Shown here one piece after another: positions 44,708 to 63,595 of a stretch of DNA of 64,000 nt. A model generated the notes under the pieces. The model was not told the DNA's origin, searched no databases, and worked only from the letters and a program-made list of their open reading frames with translations. The number at the start of each line of letters is the position of its first letter. Position 1 is the first letter of the stretch. Made by a program: the position numbers and the translations under genes. The DNA lies in contig JAGTXO010000042.1 in the NCBI GenBank assembly GCA_019448385.1, forward strand, positions 268,691 to 332,690, in the 5' to 3' direction. The stretch is from Diacronema lutheri (Eukaryota > Haptophyta > Pavlovophyceae > Pavlovales > Pavlovaceae).

Positions 44708-47700
44708 ATGGAGGACTCCGTGAAGGACGCTTTGCGCGGCGGGCGGGGCGGCTCGGACAGTTTCTCGCTGGCCCTCAGCACCATTCTGTCGCCGGGAGAT
44801 ACCCACCCCCACGTGGTCCCATCCACTTGCCTCATCGCCCTGCTGCGTTACGCGGATTTCGGCACGAGCAGGGTTAGGGTGGGCGACACGGGGTGCTCGC
44901 AGCATGCGCTCAAGGTGGCGCTGCGCAACCTGCGCAAAGCATGCGCGGATGCGGACCGGTTTGGGCAGGTGCTCGTGGTCGTGCTACCGTTCTGCCTCCG
45001 CGCGTCCAGCGGCCTCGCGCACTGGACGGCGGCGTACCTGCTCCTCGCGCCGCCCGCGCAGCGCGGCGCGCCGCCCGGCGCCGCGCTCGCCCTGCTCGCC
45101 GATTCGCGCACCTTGGGCAACGGCGAATCGGCGTACGCCACGGCGGCCGGCGTGCTCATCAAGAAGCTTGCGCAGCGCATCGGCAGAACAGCGCCGCCCA
45201 TCGATGCCTTCAAGGCGCCCCCGCAGAGTGGGGCCGCGTGTTGCTTCGCCGCGGCAACAGTCGCGGCCGAGGTCGCGGCGAGCGCATCGACGCTCTACGG
45301 CCGCCGCGCGAATGTCCTTGTCGAGATCAAGAAGGCTTTGGACGCGCGCCTCGCGCGCCTCACGACGGCCGCGTACGAGGAGACCCGCGCGCGCACGCTC
45401 CGCGCCGCCATCGGCGCTCTGCTCGGCGACCGCGCCAGGCGCTTCGGCCCGTTCACCCGCGAGGCCGCGCGGCTCGCCGAGGCCGCGCGGCTCGCCGAGG
45501 CGTGCGATGCCAGTGTCGGCGGATCCGCGCCCGACGGGCTGCTGCAGGCCGTCGAGGCGGCGCTGCGCGCGCCCGACGACCGCATCGCACGCACGGCCGC
45601 GCTCGACGCGCTCACGGGCGCTGCAGGCCGCGCGCTGTCGACGGCGGCCAGGCCGCGCGGCGCGGCGGCGCCAAGGCCGCCGTCGCGAGCGCCACCGCCG
45701 CGTGCGCCGCAGCGGCGCGCCGCCTCGGCGTGGGGGCCCCGACCATTCAGCCTCCTCGGCGGGGGCGAGGGCGACGGGGACGATGGCGACGCCACCACCG
45801 CTGACGACGGGGAGGGCGCGGAGGACGGGGACGACGACCTCGCGGGCGCGGCGGCTGCGGCGGTGGCGACGGGCACGGCGGCGACGAGCGCGGTGGCGGC
45901 GGGCGCGGCGCCAACCTCGCCGGCGGCGGCGGACGGCGGTGGCTCGGCGCCGCTCGAACGCCGCTGCGTCTACACTGCGCCTGATGAGGGCGACGCGGAC
46001 GCGCGCGTGTACGACGCCAAGGACCCCGAGCAGCTAAAAGCGGGTAGGGCGCGGCTGCGGGCGAACAGCGGGCGCGCGCCCGCCGTGGTCGACACGCTTT
46101 TCGCGCACGCGACGGGCACGATCGTCACGCGGCAGCGCACGGAGGGCGTGACCGGCGCGGGCATGCACCACCTCGCCGCCCCGACGCAGGGCGCGGGGTA
46201 CGGTACCGTCGTGCGGGCCGAGCTGGGCGAGCCCGGCTTCGCGGGGACGACACGGCACATGACGTCGGGCGTGGAGAACCAGCCGCGCGCGGTACGAGCG
46301 GCCGCGCGCGCGTACGCGCACGACGGCTGGGGCGGCGTGTACAATGCGCACGAGGACTTTGCCGCCTTCGAGGGCTTGCCGCGGCTCGCCGCGCCCGAAT
46401 CGCTCGCGGCCATCGCCGGCGGGTCGGCGGACGCGGTGTTCTGCTGGCGGTCCGGCCGGTCCGTCAACGGCGAGGTGACGACGGTTCACTTCAATGGCGA
46501 CCGCGCCGCCGCCATCGACCACGCGCGGGCGCTGCGCGTCAGGCCCGATTGGCGCTCGCAGCCCAGGATCTACGAGGCGGCGTGCGGCGCGGAGGGCACG
46601 GTGCTGCTCGTGTGGGTCGTGCCCGACCGTCACAAGAACCCGCGGCTGGACTGGGCGCCGATTCTCGTCGTGATCCACCTGCCCGCCGACCCCGACTGGC
46701 TCGCGCGCGCCACGCCGGCGATCGCGAAGGCGCGGCGCGAGGTCGAGGACGGACGCGCGCGCGCGGAGGCGCGCGGCGTGCCGCAGCACCTCGCCTACAC
46801 GCTGAGCCCACGCTTCCGAGGCACCGCGCCGCGCGGCGCCGCGCGCGTGCCGCCGCGCCTCGGCGCGAGCGACGCGCGCGAGGCGCGCGCGCTCGCGGCG
46901 CTCGAGCCGGCGCTCATGTTCGCGCCGGCCTGGCGGCGCGCGGTGCGCGCGGCGAGCCGCGCCCCCGGCAGTGGCGCCGCGGCCGTCGAGCGCGCGCTCG
47001 CGCGCCTGCACAACGCGCCCGAGCCCGATGACGAGAGCGCGCCCGAGTCGGCGCGCGTCGCGCCGCTCGCCGCCGCGCTCGAGCAGTCGGCGGGCTGGCC
47101 GGCGGGCACGGCGCGCATGGCGGCAAGCGTGACCAAGGGCCCCGGCGTCGGAGATGGCGCAGGTGGCGACGAAGCGATCAAGGTGGAGGAAACGGCGAAG
47201 ACGAGCGGCGACGGCTGCACCGGCACGCCTCCTCTGCGCCCGGCCGCGCGCGCGGCCGGCGCGGCGGACGACGGAGGGGCGGCGGTCGTGGCGGGCGTCG
47301 AGGGCGAGCGCGACGCACTCGCCAAGACGGGTGCCGGCGGCTGCGACGACGACGCTCGCGAGCCGCTGTCGGCCGGCAAGCCCGGCGCACTCGCCGCCGC
47401 GGCGACCGTCGGGGGTTTCGGCGAGCTCGTCGGCAGCCTATGCGCGTGGCTGGCGCACGGCGCGGCTGGCGGCGCCATCGCGGTCATCTCCCCCGGGACG
47501 GCCGCGCGCGGAGCAAACGGCACGCCGCAGCGCGCCGAGCCGCCGGCCGCCGGCGATCCCGTCGCTCCGCACGCGCGCGTCGCCGCTGCGGCGCCCTTGG
47601 CGGGCAGCGCGGCGGCGCCGTCGTCGGACGCGCGCGACGCGCAGCGCGGCGTCGCGGGATTCGACGCGGCCGCGCACGCGCACGCGCGCGACGGCAGGCG

Positions 47701-63595: not shown

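Follow-up and report, generated by a model that had tools for sequence, protein, structure and literature searches.

Structure of the predicted gene

In a stretch of 64,000 nucleotides of the Diacronema lutheri genome (the window), an earlier note had read positions 44708-63595 as one spliced gene for a very long polyprotein. The locus raises the questions of whether a single gene spans it, what its product would be, and what kind of DNA carries it. We searched the D. lutheri assembly of 43,492,796 bases in 103 contigs; in the accessible text of PMC8379373 the published assembly is described as 43.503 Mb in 103 contigs, the longest 3.042 Mb, with 73.25% GC and gene calls made by BRAKER2 with RNA-seq.

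Translation of the joined exons (Table 1) yielded 1226 + 4408 + 574 codons, that is, a product of 6,208 residues closed by the stop TGA at 63593-63595. The earlier model of two phase-0 GT-AG introns joining three frames was exactly reproduced in coordinates, frames and length, and the existence of one spliced open frame of 6,208 residues is confirmed. Since the GC content of the region is 75-83% and long frames are common there by chance, the middle frame was tested against random sequences. It extends over 4,507 codons, compared with maxima of 1,512 and 2,829 codons in 300 first-order and 300 second-order Markov sequences, respectively; as it exceeds all 600, chance is excluded for this frame. 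The codon-position GC is strongly periodic in the flanking exons and switches frame at both introns, and it is flat inside them (0.88/0.85/0.79 over 48420-48518 and 0.81/0.91/0.88 over 61743-61870).

Table 1. Features of the element and of the predicted gene, in window coordinates.
Feature	Position	Strand	Remarks
Whole mobile element	32961..63999	+	31,039 bp; starts and ends shared among copies
Left terminal CTATA	32961..32965	+	In 7/9 left junctions read (19 tried); TATA in 8/9
Near-palindrome, 872 bp	34960..35831	.	89-91% identity with its reverse complement, shared by other listed copies
PIF1-type helicase gene	36404..38733	+	Several frames; PF05970 E 1.9e-15, 1.8e-24; Pif1_2B E 6.2e-13 (two overlapping frames)
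UCH (ubiquitin hydrolase) stretch	40531..40797	+	PF00443 E 4.3e-8; in separate frame 39829-41322, upstream
Exon 1	44708..48385	+	1,226 codons
Intron 1	48386..48518	+	GT-AG, phase 0; contains a (GC)n run of variable length
Exon 2	48519..61742	+	4,408 codons
Possible C48/papain-like peptidase segment	52002..52790	+	H..D..Q..C order, by eye
YqaJ exonuclease domain	56763..57173	+	PF09588 E 1.7e-4, 22.3 bits, cut-off 22 (slice alone)
Chromodomain	60435..60587	+	PF00385 E 6.7e-12
Fanzor N-terminal half (part of exon 2)	60864..61742	+	Collinear, weak host-Fanzor match, E 0.014, probability 3.2%
Intron 2	61743..61870	+	GT-AG, phase 0, 128 bp
Exon 3	61871..63595	+	574 codons; Fanzor C-terminal half, acidic Gly-rich tail, stop
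Fanzor TNB/zinc module	62903..63142	+	PF07282 E 2e-6, 28.3 bits, cut-off 26.3
3' untranslated end	63596..63999	+	Where a guide RNA would be expected
Right terminal CTATA	63995..63999	+	CTATAC in 18/21 right ends read

The two introns differ in their support. Alternative GT-AG pairs able to join the frames number 112 for intron 1 and 56 for intron 2; with so many possible pairs, intron 1 is not fixed by sequence alone, and its exact position rests on composition. The repeat inside it is (GC)13 in the window copy and (GC)14 in all three other copies read, and in 8 of 150 scored copies (517 candidates) the exon-2 frame reads through intron 1, reaching 5,339-6,136 codons. A frameshift at the (GC)n run in place of this intron was considered and rejected: three of the eight read-through copies were read, all with (GC)14, and, as 48420-48518 shows no coding periodicity, an intron fits better. 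Intron 2 has outside support, since the annotated D. lutheri protein KFE25_006464 is spliced at the same place, reading ..RTHN/VPRN.. across the joint of exons 2 and 3 (slash) exactly at the intron. The starts of four exon-3 relatives at the first residue of that exon (see below) agree with this junction. This protein, encoded on contig C69, derives from a diverged, truncated copy of the element described below; it begins with an element fragment (the end of exon 2 and the start of exon 3) and continues into SAM domains, and is possibly the product of a chimeric gene. The whole chain of 6,208 residues, as predicted from the open frame, is probable, and we infer that it would be translated as one piece.

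The Fanzor end of the chain

The Fanzor RuvC and zinc module that the earlier note had described as intact is so. All three residues of the nuclease site, Asp at codon 62393, Glu at 62939 and Asp at 63119, are present, as are the four Cys, and the TNB profile matches above its cut-off. The Fanzor1 motif D-X(125,275)-[TS][TS]-xx-C4-X(5,50)-RD, given in the accessible part of PMC3627910, is found in exon 3, where D175 is followed by 184 residues, TS at 360, Cys 364/378/404/407, 8 residues and RD at 416. A profile of five exon-3 sequences matched the host Fanzor families with a probability of 98.2% and an E of 4.8e-14, and the host Fanzors in turn matched the solved Spizellomyces Fanzor (E 3e-6), so that the homology is reached through one intermediate. 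A direct search of the PDB with the joined Fanzor gave no match, and the best direct match of the exon-3 profile was a Cas12f with an E of 0.061. Foldseek with a weak structure model of exon 3 (pLDDT 48.8) likewise placed Cas12f in the top rows (E 0.024), with none at E <= 0.001. The predicted protein ends in a Fanzor1-type nuclease, for which RNA-guided cleavage is predicted. At the right end of the element no Rfam match to a guide RNA was found, and 63700-63999 folds no better than shuffled sequences (z -1.14).

Residue 169 of exon 3 aligns to residue 448 of the host Fanzor piece L055, and the similarity between host families begins near residue 46 of that piece. By these offsets roughly 200 Fanzor residues must precede exon 3, and collinear sequence for them is available in exon 2, with the weak profile match listed in Table 1. 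In the chain, Met 5133 and Met 5148 lie close to the chromodomain, which is at 5198; the next Met, 5423, is already inside the Fanzor half (beginning near 5342), and there is none between 5148 and 5423. Therefore, a Fanzor started at an AUG would include the chromodomain, barring an unseen leader exon, and a chromodomain-Fanzor fusion is well supported as the minimum reading of the predicted protein unless such an exon exists.

The same positions bear on an alternative in which the locus is divided among at least two genes, one for a long polyprotein and, downstream, a shorter one for a chromodomain-Fanzor protein, started at Met 5133 or 5148 or in an unseen leader exon. Both Met residues lie just ahead of the chromodomain, as a separate gene would have it, whereas the frame and its codon-position GC continue unbroken through the chromodomain. 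Fanzors elsewhere are separate proteins in the accessible text of PMC3627910, and every exon-3 relative starts at the first residue of the exon or close to it: four of the five, from other sources and 40-46% identical, at that residue itself, and the fifth, 98% identical, at residue 5. A bacterial gene caller would start at the conserved splice acceptor with GTG and so produce the starts of the four; equally, the first residue of exon 3 could be the true start of a separate Fanzor gene in these relatives. Exon 3 alone, however, would be a Fanzor without its N-terminal part. We consider separate genes rather unlikely.

Two other Fanzor families of the genome also close long frames (L054, 1,681 codons; L056, 1,329; L055, 1,412), with differing N-terminal parts; L054 and L056 are 98% alike, and L055 is about 38% identical to both. 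Gly/Arg-rich linkers and hydrophobic repeats stand ahead of the Fanzor in L001-L008, L054, L055 and L056, within these frames of 1,329-1,681 codons. On contig C27, a Fanzor match (254647-254874) and a reverse transcriptase match (256127-256756) lie 1.3 kb apart on the same strand; the genome has 16 RVT_1 matches.

Other domains of the chain and of the upstream region

The polyprotein had been credited with peptidases, an exonuclease and a chromodomain. The chromodomain is clear, and the YqaJ exonuclease domain passes its cut-off narrowly when the slice is searched alone, falling under it in the whole-frame scan (E 0.02). The peptidases are not supported by Pfam: no peptidase domain gave a Pfam match within the polyprotein, and the ubiquitin hydrolase stretch belongs to a separate frame upstream. 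The segment 52002-52790 gives only a hint of a peptidase. In a Foldseek search with its low-confidence model (pLDDT 42.8), 11 of the 12 top rows were RavZ, NEDD8 protease, XopD, AvrA or pS273R, all of which we take to be papain-like or CE-clan enzymes, and nothing reached E <= 0.001. PDB searches with slices of exon 1 and of the YqaJ region returned nothing useful, and among the matches listed for exon 2 residues 2560-4507 in a protein search there was no relative. For a chromodomain-Fanzor query, KFE25_006464 was the sole protein among the matches listed. Neither list contained an exon-2 relative from another species.

In the window copy the PIF1-type helicase gene, situated ahead of the gene for the polyprotein, is fragmented over several frames. 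Genome-wide, 148 of 150 scored PIF1 rows cover the profile only from position 69 onward; the other two cover 2-192 and 5-218. An exon-1 match follows the 5-218 match 7.1 kb downstream on that strand, the arrangement that a copy of the element would show; at least one copy holds a nearly complete PIF1.

A giant mobile element with about 220 copies

The earlier note had suggested a mobile element and a search of the same genome for further copies and for its ends. This search revealed a repeat of 31,039 bp, of which 44708-63595 is only the 3' 60%. All 15 scored copies (2,901 candidates) begin at 32960-32963; among 19 further copies, the right end is at 63999 in 17 and at 63988 and 63997 in the other two, which places the boundaries at 32961 and 63999. 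Over the last 4-5 kb, 17 of the 19 other copies are more than 99% identical to the window. Allowing <= 2 mismatches, the terminal patterns occur 219 times (left) and 223 times (right) in the genome, as opposed to 0 for control patterns, indicating a mobile element of about 220 copies with common ends. When 52 of 100 listed left ends were compared with 100 listed right ends, 35 could be paired, with lengths of 30.9-31.1 kb (16 pairs), 21.4-22.2 kb (8), 29.1-29.2 kb (5) and other sizes (6). By extrapolation, the family would amount to about 6 Mb, or 14% of the genome, if all 219 copies had the mean length of 27.8 kb found for the 35 pairs.

The element carries CTATA at both ends in direct orientation. 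Besides CTATA, no target duplication beyond 1 bp was found in any of the six pairs with both flanks read. No transposase was recognised by Pfam in the element frames scanned, and no relative was found in the viral contigs scanned. Contigs C1, C5, C6 and C12 start, and C14 and C43 end, within 2 bases of the right terminus of the element, the pattern that assembly breaks at the edge of a repeat would produce. Outside the element but near its copies, a 332-bp dispersed repeat was observed at window positions 10952-11283 and at L019 674-1005, L023 5372-5704 and L029 6959-7290, these three being 100%, 95.8% and 100% identical, respectively.

Frame integrity and selection

Comparison of the copies addresses a further alternative, that the repeat is a non-autonomous or decayed carrier amplified in trans, its long frames, no longer translated, being left over from GC-rich DNA or a dead gene. 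The exon-2 frame reaches at least 4,000 codons in 103 of the 150 copies scored from the 517 candidates; in 47 it is shorter than 4,000 and in 33 shorter than 3,000 codons. Between 4,477 and 4,519 codons, 22 different lengths were found in this set. No internal stop interrupts any of the 131 exon-1 matches across 299 residues, and in 117 of them the open frame is 1,345-1,351 codons long. As slippage at triplet repeats can yield in-frame lengths without selection, the kept frames support coding but do not prove it.

Selection can be tested only weakly, given the young age of the copies. In exon 3, 18 copies showed 34 nonsynonymous to 20 synonymous changes where the spectrum predicts 37:11, a deficit of nonsynonymous changes (one-sided p 0.015). 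The compared part of exon 2 gave 57 nonsynonymous, 18 synonymous and 1 stop change with about 72:24 expected; these substitutions look neutral, with no sign of constraint. In another subfamily, a 6-kb stretch has 31 substitutions, 0 stops and a single 6-bp indel. An old relative of the element, at locus L057 (1625-6495), has suffered large internal deletions; it lacks the chromodomain and the Fanzor's N-terminal half and retains long frames. Compared with this decayed relative, dN/dS is 0.74 and 0.76 in two parts of exon 2 and 0.41 and 0.68 in two parts of exon 3, and the comparison shows no in-frame stops but gaps of 1 bp and 8 bp. The broken PIF1 with its mostly incomplete genomic rows, the neutral-looking exon-2 part and antisense frames of up to 1,778 codons suit a decayed carrier, which we nevertheless hold improbable, given a middle frame that no random sequence approached, domain matches that sit in the predicted frames, the exon-3 ratio and the stop-free stretch of the other subfamily.

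Comparison with known systems

The comparisons below refer to the accessible parts of the cited papers. Fanzor1 is described by Bao and Jurka 2013 (PMC3627910) as a separate passenger protein of eukaryotic DNA transposons, with introns in some algal cases. The D. lutheri protein is similar in its catalytic and zinc motif, its DNA-element passenger state and its introns, whereas it forms the end of a predicted chain with a chromodomain and YqaJ. The open-access literature searched, with subscription papers largely outside it, yielded no paper describing a Fanzor as part of a polyprotein or joined to a chromodomain; in the accessible text of PMC6338049, Fanzor and polyprotein or chromodomain are mentioned apart from each other.

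Among the elements that carry Fanzor1, Helitron and Helitron2 (PMC3627910) share with the D. lutheri element a PIF1-type helicase, a Fanzor1 and insertion without target duplication. In contrast, the D. lutheri element has no Rep domain, and its terminal repeat is not beyond chance. The Helitron Rep (HUH) profile PF14214 was matched once genome-wide, on contig C63, and not in the element. Asymmetric terminal inverted repeats of the Helitron2 kind were sought and rejected as chance, since the best match, 9/11, was reached by 213 of 400 random pairs. By these two tests the element is no Helitron.

Similar to the Cryptons (Kojima and Jurka 2011, PMC3212892), in which short terminal direct repeats are taken as recombination substrates and some members carry Ulp1-type peptidases, the element has short terminal direct repeats and no terminal inverted repeats. 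Cryptons, however, carry the gene for a tyrosine recombinase. Scans of the element frames gave no match to this family, and PF00589 was matched 16 times in the whole genome, which has about 220 copies of the element; we therefore do not file it as a Crypton. The giant KDZ/EnSpm transposons of algae (PMC12477816) resemble it in their length of about 30 kb, their accessory genes, broken transposase genes and families moved in trans, but the D. lutheri element gave no match to such a transposase in the frames scanned and showed no such target duplication. The giant Gypsy element Burro (PMC6431247) has a multidomain transposon polyprotein of 4,873 residues; unlike the D. lutheri element it is an LTR retrotransposon, and no Fanzor is named in the accessible text.

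Proposed mechanism

Taken together, we favour with moderate confidence a giant (31 kb), high-copy and recently amplified DNA element of D. lutheri, whose 3' part would be one spliced gene with a chromodomain and a Fanzor1 end. Based on this reading, we propose how the element might spread. In the first step, it would integrate through the short CTATA cores at its ends, as in tyrosine-recombinase elements; as no recombinase was found in the element, this enzyme would be supplied by another element. The YqaJ exonuclease and the PIF1 helicase may then help to copy or repair the long element by recombination. In the third step, the Fanzor, with a guide RNA from the right end of the element, would cut element-free chromosomes, and repair would copy the element in, while the chromodomain might tether the nuclease to marked chromatin. 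In the last and weakest step, cleavage by the peptidase-like segments might release working parts from the chain. The scheme thus comprises core-site integration in trans, nuclease-aided copying and self-processing, all of which are conjectural. A bolder version would see here a new class of giant eukaryotic element that encodes an exonuclease, a chromatin reader and an RNA-guided nuclease as one self-processed polyprotein, with a chromatin-tethered Fanzor homing into uninserted alleles; this we put forward tentatively, and think it doubtful.

Significance

With this analysis, a large family of repeats in the D. lutheri genome acquires a coding identity. A chromodomain-fused Fanzor in a young, high-copy element would be a direct system in which to test whether Fanzors drive the copying of the elements that carry them, and the fusion would also allow the role of chromatin targeting to be tested.
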